Assembly: GCA_023250585.1 (NCBI GenBank)
Contig: JAHFAK010000023.1
Location: 1 to 21,720 of the forward strand
Direction: 5' to 3'
Origin: Deltaproteobacteria bacterium
GTDB lineage: Bacteria > Bdellovibrionota_F > JAHFAK01
DNA: 21,720 nucleotides
The notes beneath the pieces were generated by a model. The model did not search any database and was not told the DNA's origin. It was given only the letters and a program-made list of their open reading frames with translations. Within the stretch, counting starts at the first letter, position 1, and every line of letters begins with the position of its first letter. The position numbers and the translations under genes are program-made. This document shows, piece after piece, positions 11,280-19,127 of the stretch.

Positions 11280-12449
11280 ATGGAACGAAAACGATACCTT
11301 TATGACTTAATTGTACCTGAGCATCTAAAATCGCGCAAAATGATTTTAATCTCTGGCCCGCGGCAAGTGGGAAAAACAACGTTATCAAAACAGATTGGTA
11401 GTAATTTTAAAAATCATACGTATTTAAATTGGGATGATATTGATGATAGATTAAGAATTAGGAATAGAGAATTTTCTTCATTTACCATACTCGATGAAAT
11501 TCATAAGAGTAAACAATGGAAAAGTTTTGTTAAGGGAATATATGATAAATCCAAAGAAGAGGTCCTATTGTGTATTACGGGTAGCTCAAGAATAGACGTA
11601 TACAAAAAAGGAGGGGATAGCCTCATTGGAAGGTATTTTCATTATCTTTTACATCCATTTTCAGCAGGCGAACTTTCTAACAATCACATTGTGTTACCCA
11701 AAAATATAGATTGTGAGAATTACCAGGATATTCAAGAAACGGTGATTAATGACTTACTAAAATTTAGTGGTTTTCCTGAACCATTCTTACGCAAGGAAGA
11801 AGTCTTTTATAAAAAATGGAGAAATCAAAGACTCGAAAAAATATTAAAAGAAGATTTGCGAGATTTAGAAAACTTAAAGATGATTGAATTAGTCGAGTAT
11901 TTGTATCAACTCGGGAAAAATACTGTTGGTTCGACCTTCTCTATTAATAGTTTTCGTGAAACCTTGAATATAAGTTTTCCAACTACAGCGCATTATTGGA
12001 AAATTCTCGAATCGCTCTATTTATATTTCTCAATTCCTCCCTACTCAAAAAGTATTGCCCGAAGTCTTACAAAAGAACGAAAAGCCTATCTATGGGATTA
12101 CGCAGATCTTACTAATGAAAGCGCAGCTTTTGAAAATCTTATTGCAAGTCATTTATTAAAATATGTTCATTTTTTACAAAATACCTATGGCGAGAACATT
12201 AATTTATTTTATATCCGAGATAGAGAAAAGCGTGAAGTTGATTTCTTGTTAGAATATGAGAATAAGCCGTGGATGCTCATTGAGACAAAATTAGACACAA
12301 CTGAGATACATAAAAATAGCCTCTATTATAAAAACAATTTAAATGTTCCTTATTCAATCCAAGTAATCAAAAAGCCTCATGTGTTCATTAAAAAAGATGC
12401 TCAGATTATTCTATCGGCCAACAAATTCTTAGGTGTACTGGGGATATAG
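11280..12449 (+). CDS. AAA_14/DUF4143 family ATPase
   Basis: This is a complete 389-residue member of the widespread ATP-binding family with an N-terminal AAA domain and a C-terminal DUF4143 region. Walker A is GPRQVGKTTL at 26-35, Walker B is FTILDEIHK with Asp72 and Glu73, and a sensor-like strand reads CITGSSR. The following LIGRYFHYLLHPFSAGEL is typical of the family. Near the C-terminus REVDFLL (Asp321) and IETK (Glu335, Lys337) form a PD-(D/E)XK nuclease-like motif, so the C-terminal part may have a nuclease fold. Such genes are often scattered, horizontally moved singletons, and their biological role is poorly defined. No Shine-Dalgarno site precedes the ATG. The downstream gene is convergent. 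Confidence 0.92.
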   Translation: MERKRYLYDLIVPEHLKSRKMILISGPRQVGKTTLSKQIGSNFKNHTYLNWDDIDDRLRIRNREFSSFTILDEIHKSKQWKSFVKGIYDKSKEEVLLCITGSSRIDVYKKGGDSLIGRYFHYLLHPFSAGELSNNHIVLPKNIDCENYQDIQETVINDLLKFSGFPEPFLRKEEVFYKKWRNQRLEKILKEDLRDLENLKMIELVEYLYQLGKNTVGSTFSINSFRETLNISFPTTAHYWKILESLYLYFSIPPYSKSIARSLTKERKAYLWDYADLTNESAAFENLIASHLLKYVHFLQNTYGENINLFYIRDREKREVDFLLEYENKPWMLIETKLDTTEIHKNSLYYKNNLNVPYSIQVIKKPHVFIKKDAQIILSANKFLGVLGI

Positions 12450-15313: not shown

Positions 15314-16192
15314 CTAAATATCCATCCCAATTTTCCATACATTTTTTTCAAGAAATGCTTCAATGGTTTGGCGGGTTGCTTTATTTAACACATTTGAATG
15401 AGATAAATTTTCCATTTTTGCATATTCAGAAAGCGTAACAATTCGTTTATTTTCAAGATAAGCAAGTCGTTTGTGATAGCTATTCGTCAGTGCTTTTCCA
15501 ACAATTTCGTTCATAAGATGAGTTAGATTTTTATTATTAAATTCTTCGAATGCTTCGTAATATTTTTTTCGATCAATAAATTTGATATTGATAGGAACGA
15601 ATCCCTCTCGAATCAAAAGATAATTATTGAGTATACGGCCGATTCGTCCATTGCCATCAATAAAAGGATGAATATGCTCAAAGGTAAGATGAAACTTTGA
15701 TATGCGTTTTATTATATTTTCATGATTTTTCGCTTGATATTCTGCAAGCATTGTTTCAAGTAAATTGGTTACCTCGTGCGGACCCGGTGCTATATAACTA
15801 CCAACGCGAACATATTCATTACCTTGCCTCAATCGTCCAGCAATATCATCTCGAATGTTTGAAATAAGCATTTTGTGGAGAAATAAAATGACGGTAAGAT
15901 TTAATTCGTTTTTTTGGGCATTTCTATTTATATAGGTAACCACGCGAGCTAAGTTTTTTGCTTCAAATAACTCTCTTTCAGAAATAAATCGATCAAGATC
16001 AATCTGAAGAAGTATCTTTTCGGTTTCTTCTAAAGACAAAGTACTATTTTCAATTGCATTCGAGTTATACACCTGTTCAGCAACTTCAGAATCGGCAATA
16101 AGCTTGATAAGCGGTTCTTTGCCAAGAGCTGTTTTATAGTATCTTTCGCGTAAGAGACTAATTTTTTTAAATATTTCCGCTACCTTAGGCAT
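15314..16192 (-). CDS. Fic-domain protein (class II, self-inhibited) with C-terminal helix-turn-helix-like region
   Basis: Fic proteins transfer AMP or related groups from nucleotides to target proteins. The catalytic motif HPFIDGNGRIGR lies at 175-186 with His175 intact. The N-terminal inhibitory helix motif S/T-x-x-x-E-G/N is present as SNAIEN (44-49), which marks the class II type held inactive by its own helix. GNEYVRVGSYIAPGPHEV before the core is the usual flap region. The C-terminal 40 residues (TLSEYAKMENLSHSNVLNKATRQ, then AFLEKNVWKIG) look like a small excisionase/MerR-type DNA-binding fold, which suggests autoregulation. The gene stands alone, with no separate antitoxin gene, and its promoter is straddled by inverted repeats. 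Confidence 0.93.
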   Translation of the reverse strand: MPKVAEIFKKISLLRERYYKTALGKEPLIKLIADSEVAEQVYNSNAIENSTLSLEETEKILLQIDLDRFISERELFEAKNLARVVTYINRNAQKNELNLTVILFLHKMLISNIRDDIAGRLRQGNEYVRVGSYIAPGPHEVTNLLETMLAEYQAKNHENIIKRISKFHLTFEHIHPFIDGNGRIGRILNNYLLIREGFVPINIKFIDRKKYYEAFEEFNNKNLTHLMNEIVGKALTNSYHKRLAYLENKRIVTLSEYAKMENLSHSNVLNKATRQTIEAFLEKNVWKIGMDI

Positions 16193-16209
16193 ATAAATAC
16201 AACCTCATT

Positions 16210-16241
16210 TATTCACGATTATATCATAATAAACGTGAATA
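16210..16241. promoter_or_regulatory. Operator-like inverted repeat over fic promoter
   Basis: TATTCACG (16210-16217) and CGTGAATA (16234-16241) are exact inverted copies, with an inner dyad ATTAT-ATC-ATAAT at 16218-16230. A third CGTGAAT lies at 16285-16291. The outer arms flank the -10 and overlap the -35 of the fic promoter, the expected place for a repressor. Confidence 0.65.
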
Positions 16242-16245
16242 TCAA
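16218..16245 (-). promoter_or_regulatory. Sigma-70 promoter of fic gene
   Basis: On the minus strand TTGATA (16245-16240), 16 bases, then a perfect TATAAT (16223-16218), 26 bases before the fic ATG. This is one of the best promoter matches in the window. Confidence 0.7.
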
Positions 16246-16615
16246 GATAAAAACAACATTAATTCATTATTATTTACTTATAACCGTGAATTATATCTAA
16301 AGTAATCGAAAATGAAAAAGGACCAAAGAGTCACTCATAGCATAGGTGCCCGGAGCTTTTTGCCCGGTTTGTTGGCTGTCACTTTTTTTCCCAAGTCAAC
16401 ATTCTGATCAAAAAAATCTGAACGTTCATTTGTAAGGAGGAATTTTTAACAATAGCTGCAAAGCCATCAGCGATGGCATAGTATTAGGAATAGCGCCTTT
16501 TAGGAAATGTTTTATTCGTTGAGTATGATAGAGAAAGGTTAAGAAAATATGACATTTTCGTTTTGGTACATTATGTAATATTTTAACTTTGGCTGGACAT
16601 ACCCCAGTTTTGCAT
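16246..16615. other. Gap without a confident gene between fic and tRNA-Asn
   Basis: No frame of useful length is intact here. Visible items are a third CGTGAAT box, a small hairpin GCCATC-AGC-GATGGC near 16466, and a good ribosome-site sequence (AAGGAGGAA, near 16435) not followed by a start codon. On the minus strand short stop-broken stretches (for example IADGFAAIVKN) could be a decayed gene, but I cannot name it. Confidence 0.4.
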
Positions 16616-16675: not shown

Positions 16676-16748
16676 TCCCCAGTAGCTCAGTCGGTAGAGC
16701 AATTGGCTGTTAACCAATGGGTCGCTGGTTCGAGTCCGGCCTGGGGAG
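16676..16748 (+). tRNA. tRNA-Asn (anticodon GTT)
   Basis: A full cloverleaf is present. The acceptor stem is TCCCCAG (16676-16682) with CTGGGGA (16741-16747), discriminator G. The D arm contains AGCTCAGTCGGTAGAGC. The anticodon stem ATTGG/CCAAT holds loop CTGTTAA with anticodon GTT. The T arm is GCTGG-TTCGAGT-CCGGC. The 3' CCA is not encoded. A tRNA gene is a common integration site, and the genes to its right look accessory, but I found no second copy of its 3' end in the window. Confidence 0.97.
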
Positions 16749-16803
16749 CTTTTGTTCTTTCGATAAACTAATTTAACAGTTTAAAAATTTTATATCTTTG
16801 TTT

Positions 16804-17493
16804 TCAACTGTTCTCCTCTTTATTTAATTGTTTAATAAATTCGTCAACTGTGTCCTCAAAAGATAATATTTGATCTCTCAGATCACTGTCCTGAGTAATC
16901 TTAAAGTGCTCACGTATAACTTCAGAGATATTATACGCATGCATTATATTGCTCACAAACCCCTCCGATGTATATTTTTTAGAGAGTTTTAAATTGTTTA
17001 TTAACTTTCCACCACTAGGCATGCCATGGATGTACGAAGAAAGAGATCGGTAATCCATGTTATAAGGGTCCAATAGGTTCACTTCCTTAGCTCTTATTTC
17101 TAAACTTTTATTATGAAGCTTGCTGTGACTATTATTATTAGTTCGAGTAAAATAGTCTTCGCATACTGAATAAGTATGGGTTAAACCTTTCGAACAGTCC
17201 GGATGGTTAAATGCATAAACTGTATTTATATATTCTTCCGTAAGTACGCGCAGTCCAATGAGAGATAACAATAAGTCGTCCCGAAATAACGAATTATAAA
17301 TTTGAGTCATTAGCTGGCAAGATAACAGCACCTGTTTTCTAGCAATCACCCATCTCTTTTGCTCATTTTTATCCTTTATTGGCTCAAACCGAAGCAACTT
17401 ATTAGCTATATCAGTAGAGTATGTACTTGTCATAAAAGTTACCTGCTTGGCAAGGTTACGGATTACCTCAAAATTTTTATCTTCAAAATTCAT
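16804..17493 (-). CDS. HEPN-like protein, DUF5677-type, partner of S24 repressor
   Basis: The 229-residue product looks all-helical and soluble, with no signal peptide. The segment LLLSLIGLRVLTEEYIN (about 75-90) followed later by DYRSLSSYIHG (147-157) resembles DUF5677-type proteins. Arg149 and His156 fit the R-x(4-6)-H motif of HEPN ribonucleases, which are common in toxin and abortive-infection systems. This assignment is from pattern alone. The ATG shares one base with the stop of the upstream S24 repressor gene (TAATG) and is preceded by AGAGGA inside that gene, so the two are translated together. That makes it a likely effector released when the repressor is inactivated. It ends 55 bases from the tRNA-Asn gene. 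Confidence 0.75.
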   Translation of the reverse strand: MNFEDKNFEVIRNLAKQVTFMTSTYSTDIANKLLRFEPIKDKNEQKRWVIARKQVLLSCQLMTQIYNSLFRDDLLLSLIGLRVLTEEYINTVYAFNHPDCSKGLTHTYSVCEDYFTRTNNNSHSKLHNKSLEIRAKEVNLLDPYNMDYRSLSSYIHGMPSGGKLINNLKLSKKYTSEGFVSNIMHAYNISEVIREHFKITQDSDLRDQILSFEDTVDEFIKQLNKEENS

Positions 17494-18119
17494 TATCCTC
17501 TCACCTTCTTGATCACCTGTACCACTTTTCCATTAACCATGTAATCGACAAAATCATCTTCGTGAATATAAATCGGAGGAAATTCTTTGGTAGATTCTGA
17601 TAGTAAAACAATTTGATTGTTTTGTGTATCTCGACAAAACTTTTTTATATTTGCTGCGCCGTCAATGATGGAAATTACATAGTCGTTGTTTTTTGGCTCC
17701 CTGTCTTCGGAATCTATGATCACGTAATCACCATCTTCTATTGATTTGCCAGCAAAATTTGCTTTGTTCATAGAGGAACCAAGTGCTCGAACTGCAAATA
17801 ATTGTTTTTTCTTAGGAATCATCCTAGGAGAAACGGTGAGATATCCTTCAAAATTCTCAATAGCGACTTGACGAGGATCCCCGCAATTAGCAGCACCAAG
17901 AATAGGAATAGAAATCATTCTTGTTGTTTGATTATGAGCCCCTATGCTCCGCGGTTTATTTCCGTGTGTTAACAATCCTTTATTTCTTAACTGATCTAAG
18001 TGATGTTTAATTTTTTGTGGATGTGTTTCACCCACATATTCTCCCATTTCCCGCAATGTCATTAATTCTATATTTTTTTCTACCGCAAGTCTGAGAAGTT
18101 TTTTTTGTAATTCGTGCAT
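17493..18119 (-). CDS. LexA/S24-family self-cleaving repressor
   Basis: Residues 1-60 form a LexA-like winged helix-turn-helix (MTLREMGEYVGETHPQKIKHHLDQL). Residues about 72-205 are an S24 peptidase domain. The cleavage site reads GAANCGDP, that is Cys79-Gly80, like UmuD, rather than the Ala-Gly of standard LexA. The catalytic serine is Ser116 in LGSSM and the lysine Lys159 in ANIKKF, so the protein should be able to cut itself when RecA is activated by DNA damage. At 208 residues it is LexA-sized, but the changed cleavage site and accessory context argue for a phage- or island-type repressor. The gene is divergent from a Bro-N gene and overlaps the downstream HEPN-like gene by one base. No Shine-Dalgarno site is visible at the start. 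Confidence 0.9.
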   Translation of the reverse strand: MHELQKKLLRLAVEKNIELMTLREMGEYVGETHPQKIKHHLDQLRNKGLLTHGNKPRSIGAHNQTTRMISIPILGAANCGDPRQVAIENFEGYLTVSPRMIPKKKQLFAVRALGSSMNKANFAGKSIEDGDYVIIDSEDREPKNNDYVISIIDGAANIKKFCRDTQNNQIVLLSESTKEFPPIYIHEDDFVDYMVNGKVVQVIKKVRG

Positions 18120-18281
18120 AAATTATTTTTTAGTATTTATTTCTTATGGTGTCAATTAAAAATAAAATTTACTTGACAAAATTGACTATAAACCACAAAA
18201 AGGAATTCTTTAAAATTTAATCAATGGGATTTTTTCTTTTAGGCCAAGTATATTGAATAGAGTCAAAGCAGAAAGGATCGT
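18120..18281. promoter_or_regulatory. Divergent control region between S24 repressor and Bro-N genes
   Basis: TGTCAA (18150-18155) and TTGACA (18173-18178) form an inverted pair 17 bases apart, and TTGAC repeats at 18182-18186. On the minus strand TTGACA (18155-18150) with TAAAAA 17 bases on (18132-18127) is a possible repressor-gene promoter, though nearly leaderless. The GTCAA/TTGAC boxes are candidates for binding of the S24 repressor. The Bro-N gene has a GAAAGG ribosome site at its right end. Confidence 0.4.
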
Positions 18282-19127
18282 ATGGAAAAAGATAAATCAA
18301 TCGCTGAGATAAAACATCTTGTTGTTTTTAATAAAAAAGAAATTCGGAGAACTTTACATAATAATGAATGGTGGTTTGTAATCGAGGATATTGTTGCAGC
18401 TTTAACAGATTCAGTTCAACCCGCAGGATACATTAAAGATATGCGCCGTAGAGATCCTGAGCTTGCTCAAGGGTGGGGGCAAATTGCCACCCCCCTTTCA
18501 ATAGAAACATTAGGTGGGAAACAAAAGCTTAACTGTGCGAATACGGAAGGAATCTTTCGCATTATCCAGTCAATTCCTTCGCCAAAGGCAGAACCATTCA
18601 AGCGATGGCTAGCCAAAGTTGGTTACGAAAGAGTTCAAGAAATAGAAGATCCAGAACTGGCGAGTAAGCGAACTCGAGCCATATACAAAGCAAAAGGTTA
18701 CGATGATGCTTGGATCGAAAAACGGATGCGCTCGATTGCCATTCGTGAAGAGCTAACCGATGAATGGAAAGATCGCAGAGTAGGAGAAGACCGAGAATAC
18801 GCTATTCTCACGGCAGAAATTTCCAAGGCCGCCTTTGGTATGACTCCGAATGAATATAAAGATTTCAAAGGACTAGGACGCCAAAACCTACGTGATCACA
18901 TGAACGATTTGGAATTAATTTTCTCAATGCTCGGAGAAGCTGCAACCACAGAAATTACCATAAACAAAGATGCTCAAGGTTTTGATCAAAGCAAAGACTG
19001 TGCTCAAGAAGGCGGAACAATAGCTGGAAACGCTCGGAGGGATCTGGAGCAAAAAACAGGTAAGCGAGTTTCGACACGAGAAAATTATTTACTGAAGAGG
19101 CCTGATAAAAAGAGACTGGAGAATTAG
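18282..19127 (+). CDS. Bro-N domain protein (phage antirepressor/DinD-like)
   Basis: The N-terminal 115 residues are a Bro-N domain (LVVFNKKEIRRTLHNNEWWFVIEDIVAALTDS in outline, then the hallmark RIIQSIPSPKAEPFKRWLA). The central and C-terminal parts (ELTDEWKDR, EYAILTAEISKAAFGMTPNEY, NLRDHMNDLELIFSMLGEAATTEI, GGTIAGNARRDLEQKTGK) match the conserved tail of the bacterial Bro-N/DinD-like family. Such proteins occur in phages and islands as antirepressors, or as damage-induced genes of unclear function. Placed back to back with a self-cleaving repressor, this one is probably induced by DNA damage. A GAAAGG ribosome site precedes the ATG. The full length of 281 residues appears intact. Confidence 0.9.
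   Translation: MEKDKSIAEIKHLVVFNKKEIRRTLHNNEWWFVIEDIVAALTDSVQPAGYIKDMRRRDPELAQGWGQIATPLSIETLGGKQKLNCANTEGIFRIIQSIPSPKAEPFKRWLAKVGYERVQEIEDPELASKRTRAIYKAKGYDDAWIEKRMRSIAIREELTDEWKDRRVGEDREYAILTAEISKAAFGMTPNEYKDFKGLGRQNLRDHMNDLELIFSMLGEAATTEITINKDAQGFDQSKDCAQEGGTIAGNARRDLEQKTGKRVSTRENYLLKRPDKKRLEN

Follow-up and report, generated by a model that had tools for sequence, protein, structure and literature searches.

Class II Fic proteins reportedly make up about 80% of all Fic proteins, and their function and control are almost wholly obscure (PMC9755527). One of the closest described systems, and an experimental precedent for the one reported here, is CccR of Yersinia pseudotuberculosis (PDB 7XUX), a class II Fic protein and type VI secretion system effector that has a C-terminal helix-turn-helix (HTH) domain, footprints the sequence AGATAATCAT-N26-ATGATAATCT and acts as its own repressor (PMC9755527). 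The CbFic2 protein of Coxiella burnetii (PDB 8CIL; PMC10628234) is likewise a class II Fic protein with a DNA-binding C-terminal winged helix-turn-helix. Here we describe the fic gene of a 21,720-nucleotide stretch of DNA (contig JAHFAK010000023.1 of assembly GCA_023250585.1, Deltaproteobacteria bacterium; the whole stretch is hereafter the window), which encodes a 292-residue class II Fic protein with a predicted DNA-binding tail and is preceded by inverted repeats laid across its promoter. We propose that it is a self-contained one-gene module in which an inhibitory helix restrains the enzyme while autorepression mediated by the tail restrains transcription, a reading to which we give a probability of roughly 0.8. 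The domains, the operator, its conservation and its confinement to fic, the joint transfer of gene and operator and the absence of a partner are read from sequence comparison; from these we infer that the tail binds the operator, and that the Fic protein very probably represses its own gene.

The likeness to CccR lies in the inverted-repeat operator near the -35 and -10 boxes of the protein's own promoter and in the C-terminal DNA-binding domain. However, the CccR operator differs from the TTTCACG-N16-CGTGAAA of the window's fic family, the CccR DNA-binding domain spans residues 276–380 whereas the window Fic has an excisionase/BldC-type tail of about 45 residues, and the two proteins are 17% identical (Z 19.3). 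The window Fic is thus not a member of CccR's own family, given the different operator, although by analogy it may work like CccR. CbFic2 differs in having a DUF4172 dimer domain and a DeoR-type domain and in targeting host histone H3, and the part of its published account available to us reports no operator of its own (PMC10628234). The window family is set apart by its DNA-binding domain, operator, spacing and spread. SoFic and PDC-S04 are similarly stand-alone Fic proteins, but their PADLOC profile matches end before the window tail; Sofic is reported to confer phage defence (PMC12249575) and has a small antitoxin gene, AS1, downstream, of which no conserved counterpart was seen at 80 fic loci. 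Human FICD (HYPE) shares the class II control but is an endoplasmic reticulum enzyme acting on BiP and has no DNA-binding tail. BldC binds direct repeats head-to-tail (PMC5859096), in contrast to the inverted half-sites of the window family, whose domain is fused to an enzyme. Among the papers searched, none joined "Fic domain" with "Patescibacteria", or "Fic family" with "Candidate Phyla Radiation". The features of the locus are as follows.

15314..16192, minus strand: fic gene, class II Fic protein of 292 residues with a C-terminal winged-helix tail (open reading frame, Pfam and homologue alignment)
16046..16063, minus strand: inhibitory motif SNAIEN, residues 44–49, of the form (S/T)xxxE(G/N) and N-terminal to the Fic motif, as in class II (alignment)
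15635..15670, minus strand: Fic catalytic motif HPFIDGNGRIGR, residues 175–186 (alignment)
15323..15451, minus strand: predicted excisionase/BldC-like winged helix, residues 248–290 (predicted structure and fold comparison)
15374..15400, minus strand: putative DNA-recognition helix HSNVLNKAT, residues 265–273 (model; recognition role inferred)
16210..16241, no strand: inner operator palindrome TATTCACG-N16-CGTGAATA (exact repeat, conserved upstream of homologues)
16263..16290, no strand: outer operator palindrome, one arm decayed, TTCACG-N16-AATGAA on the minus strand (holds the third half-site; 51-bp direct repeat)
16240..16245, minus strand: -35 box TTGATA, which shares bases with the left arm of the operator (promoter scoring)
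16218..16223, minus strand: -10 box TATAAT, immediately next to the right arm of the operator (promoter scoring)

The operator upstream of fic

The exact arms of the inner palindrome, TATTCACG at 16210–16217 and CGTGAATA at 16234–16241, are located in the gap upstream of fic, and a TTGATA-16-TATAAT promoter scoring 11 of 12 runs across the palindrome on the minus strand (16245–16218). An earlier note on this locus had described exact inverted copies at a TATAAT promoter together with a third half-site. The former stand, but the latter is not a lone site: CGTGAATT at 16285–16292 is an arm of a second, imperfect palindrome, two mismatches from perfect, such that the operator is in plan two tandem palindromes, with the inner and outer units repeating directly over 40 nt at 75% identity and a period of 51 bp. 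The window alone is weak evidence, because, of 2000 dinucleotide shuffles of the AT-rich sequence here, 403 (20%) contain some 8-bp exact inverted repeat, and the operator call rests on comparison with relatives.

A scan of bacterial and archaeal genomes provided a homologue set of 80 loci with 69–77% identity over nearly the full length, and the promoter set (n = 80) consists of the window and 79 relatives with a readable upstream region, with a few near-identical pairs (e.g. L006/L007, L014/L019) included in the counts. The hosts belong to Patescibacteria, Pseudomonadota, Planctomycetota, Spirochaetota, Actinomycetota, Elusimicrobiota, Omnitrophota, Nitrospirota, Myxococcota, Bdellovibrionota and others, an assignment to be read with a weakly resolved tree and the possible misplacement of some loci by binning of metagenome-assembled genomes in mind.

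Five features of fic promoters bear on the proposal. First, the repeats recur before homologous fic genes, as the earlier note had expected: TTCACG-N(15–18)-CGTGAA is present upstream of fic as an exact copy in 53 of 80 promoters, with at most one mismatch in 70 and with at most two in 78, and the spacer is 16 bp in nearly all close relatives. Shuffled promoter sequences never reproduced the exact site, and none of 31 other Fic genes (from the same genome, its relatives and viral contigs) has it within two mismatches. Second, 61 of 69 aligned promoters have an additional CGTGAA 28–29 bp upstream of the left arm, and 12 of the 69 have a fourth half-site at -51/-52, the same plan as in the window. 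Third, the operator is tied to the promoter elements, with a TTGACA-like -35 within the inner palindrome and a -10 located 15–19 bp further in 75 of 96 promoters; the -35/-10 spacer is 15–17 in 73 of the 75 in which both boxes are recognisable, and in most relatives the inner arms enclose the -35 rather than the -10.

Fourth, the site is confined to fic. The exact palindrome is present in 26 of 37 host genomes and is at the fic promoter save for two sites, one a GC-rich chance match and the other a solo operator. The window's fic family is carried by 44 of 379 Patescibacteria genomes (counted from a table), and exact palindromes with TTGACA in the spacer occur at 15 places in 14 genomes, all among those 44 (counted by eye), while the remaining exact palindromes are scattered, with a number comparable to that in a reversed control. 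A scan of the window's genome revealed no convincing second operator target apart from one remnant; an exact palindrome on contig C83, considered as a regulon target, lies at or just past the end of a long reading frame and seems to be a chance occurrence. A search of IMG/VR for the operator pattern gave no match.

Finally, the half-sites of a promoter vary together. A second tier of homologues in Patescibacteria (about 230–366 bits) has the same tail and a 17-bp operator spacer, and in the 19 promoters of this sister subfamily with all three half-sites placed, the half-sites of one promoter agree at two variable positions in 94 of 114 comparisons, where shuffling gives 70.5 and none of 5000 shuffles reaches as high. 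The CGTGAAT, AGTGAAT and CGTTAAT types each tend to fill all sites of one promoter, which is the pattern that a promoter-specific binding protein would give. Two distant members, L187 and L188 (genomes G410 and G458), have NAAKKQ tails and apparent GGTGAAT/TTTTCACC half-sites downstream of the usual position, apparently a further specificity type.

The Fic core and its C-terminal tail

The 292-residue product matches the Pfam Fic profile (PF02661) with an E value of 4.5e-20, and HPFIDGNGRIGR satisfies the signature HxFx(D/E)GNGRxxR, with H175, G180–R183 and R186 invariant in an alignment of 40 homologues. The inhibitory helix that the earlier note had ascribed to the protein is recognised as the class II motif S44-NAI-E48-N49, of which S44, N45, A46, I47 and E48 are invariant in the same 40 sequences. 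By both sequence motifs the protein is a class II Fic protein, and it would be expected to transfer AMP to a protein target. The model of the whole protein has a mean predicted local distance difference test score (pLDDT) of 83.6, but residues 43–68 are poorly modelled (pLDDT < 50), and the place of the inhibitory region is therefore known from the motif. PADLOC profiles match the Fic core (PDC-S04, E 7.7e-33; SoFic, E 2.8e-25), and the closest solved structure to the Fic part is that of human FICD (profile E 1.7e-24 over residues 8–220; fold Z 22.6).

The tail is predicted with good confidence to be an excisionase/BldC-type winged helix of about 45 residues, in agreement with the earlier proposal of an excisionase-type DNA-binding fold. 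The model of residues 248–290 comprises a strand, two helices and a two-strand wing; in the full-length model pLDDT is about 92–95 as far as residue 270 and 82–92 thereafter, and modelling the tail without the Fic part gives the same secondary-structure elements. The top structural matches are BldC–DNA complexes (Z 5.9 and 5.7, 44 residues), followed by mycobacteriophage Pukovnik Xis (Z 5.3), a phage P2 DNA-binding protein (Z 5.1) and lambda Xis–DNA (Z 5.0, 1.2 Å over 42 residues). Residues N270, K271, A272, R274 and Q275 are invariant in the 40-homologue alignment. Pfam searches gave no hit for the window tail and weak HTH hits for the tails of single family members, PDB gave no sequence match, and the tail is therefore placed by fold comparison.

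Apparent movement of the gene with its operator

No conserved neighbour or partner/antitoxin gene is present across the 80 loci, and we therefore rejected a two-gene Fic toxin-antitoxin system (FicTA, Phd-Doc, Sofic-AS1) as an account of the locus. The commonest neighbour, a RhuM-like gene, is found at nine of the 80 (L004, L010, L012, L013, L025, L054, L057, L078 and others), and two apparent "conserved ORFs" (open reading frames) near fic are antisense readings of the operator itself. Restriction-, methylase- and AbiE-like genes also recur near fic, hinting at defence islands; these genes and the RhuM-like one are named by a look at their sequences only.

A close copy of fic is absent from the 97 other genomes searched as relatives of the window. 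Carriage by phages or plasmids was considered and set aside, as phages, plasmids and IMG/VR hold only distant Fic proteins of <60% identity. Elsewhere in the window's genome, contig C159 contains a deleted second fic cassette (L119:1163–1301, which is G000:C159 at about 37962–38100), in which an operator of three half-sites is joined directly to the final ~20 codons of fic (RQTIDAFLEKGVWKIGVE); next to it (L119:1036–1160) is a palindromic-looking repeat element of ~120 bp. Solo operators are also present. One, in a Planctomycetes genome with an intact fic elsewhere (L145:1045–1072), has three half-sites and no obvious -10, is located just before a FAD-linked-oxidase-like gene, and is either a remnant or a second target. 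Another, in Patescibacteria (L221:685–714; G333:C1:780485), is a clade-2 operator that includes TTGACA; an intact fic lies 3 kb away, and no gene follows the operator directly on the same strand. Given the solo operators, the deleted cassette and the lack of a conserved neighbour, fic and its operator appear to be gained and lost as one unit.

Beyond fic, the window contains a tRNA-Asn gene (16676–16749) and a DUF5677-like gene, an S24/LexA-like regulator (17493–18119) and a Bro-N gene within 16804–19127, and the stretch from tRNA-Asn to Bro-N is possibly a small island or prophage remnant. At 11280–12449 there is an AAA_14/DUF4143 ATPase gene with a PADLOC match to PDC-S01 (E 6.1e-46), a candidate for phage defence.

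Proposed autorepression and its alternatives

In the mechanism we propose, the class II Fic AMP-transferase would be held at low activity by its own inhibitory helix, and the tail, probably as a dimer, would bind the inverted TTCACG...CGTGAA half-sites over the core promoter and block RNA polymerase, repressing fic. The centres of the half-sites are separated by 22 bp, or two helical turns, a geometry that would suit a symmetric dimer on a single face of the DNA, and the second upstream palindrome or half-site would probably add cooperative binding. There would thus be two brakes on one protein, one on its activity and one on its amount, and gene and operator appear to move between phyla as one unit with no need of a partner gene. 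The earlier suggestion that a single gene controls both activity and transcription draws support from this anatomy and from the CccR precedent (PMC9755527).

Several observations tell against this proposal. Two of the 80 promoters (L057 and L060) are without the site, and the -35 and -10 boxes of the window are displaced relative to the family plan. The window tail has no Pfam or PDB sequence match, and its structural Z-scores of 5–6 are modest, as expected for 55 residues. The half-site shuffle takes no account of relatedness. In the sister subfamily, residue 271 is K or R with strict CGTGAAT half-sites in five of five cases and A with relaxed sites in 12 of 14 (p 0.002 per locus), but the K/A switch is one change on the tree; the link is thus a lead and no independent proof, and we do not regard the residue, confounded as it is by phylogeny, as a proven specificity determinant.

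The best-surviving alternative, though still a doubtful one, is that DNA binding is mainly an enzyme switch, with the operator or foreign DNA freeing the inhibitory helix and turning on AMPylation or deAMPylation, and autoregulation a by-product. The (de)AMPylation activity of CbFic2 is stimulated by DNA binding through its winged helix-turn-helix (PMC10628234), and Fic families of this kind (PDC-S04, SoFic) are listed as phage-defence candidates. Nonetheless, the operator sits tightly over the promoter and is strictly confined to fic, which favours gene control first, and such a switch is compatible with autorepression rather than exclusive of it. A further reading, to which we give similarly low credence, is that DNA occupancy couples transcription to activity: the tail would count copies of its operator, or foreign DNA, and as long as it stayed bound the gene would be silent and the enzyme held inhibited. 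One protein would then do the work of a toxin-antitoxin pair, spreading from phylum to phylum as a cassette of gene plus operator.

It seems quite improbable that the operator is instead bound by a regulator encoded elsewhere, with the Fic tail serving non-specific DNA binding or target recognition. The S24/LexA-like regulator is close by in the window, and binding by Fic itself is deduced from sequence, but operator and fic are co-inherited in many phyla although no neighbouring gene is conserved, the host genomes have almost no other copy of the site, unlike the expectation for a host regulator, and the half-sites co-vary promoter by promoter. Activation of its own promoter by the protein, in the manner of classical MerR proteins, is less probable again, notwithstanding the MerR/BldC-type fold of the tail and the position of the sites inside the promoter. 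MerR activators work on promoters with 19–20 bp spacing, whereas nearly all relatives have a spacing of 15–17 bp and the window one of 16, and the near-consensus boxes need no activator; with the operator covering a core promoter of normal spacing, repression is far likelier. A reading of the repeats as the termini, or the remains, of a small mobile element has broad transfer between phyla and the solo copies without fic (L145, L221) in its favour, but is scarcely credible given repeats on the promoter side at a near-fixed distance to the -35 and -10, differing flanks and no matching repeat at the other end in the window.

The placement of the Fic core among phage-defence candidates by PADLOC makes a defence or toxin function the likeliest role, purely by analogy. 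The family is large and clearly bounded, with an operator readable from sequence in nearly every member, and its natural half-site and spacer variants make DNA recognition directly testable. It would represent an enzyme gene and its own operator travelling jointly through Patescibacteria and many other phyla.
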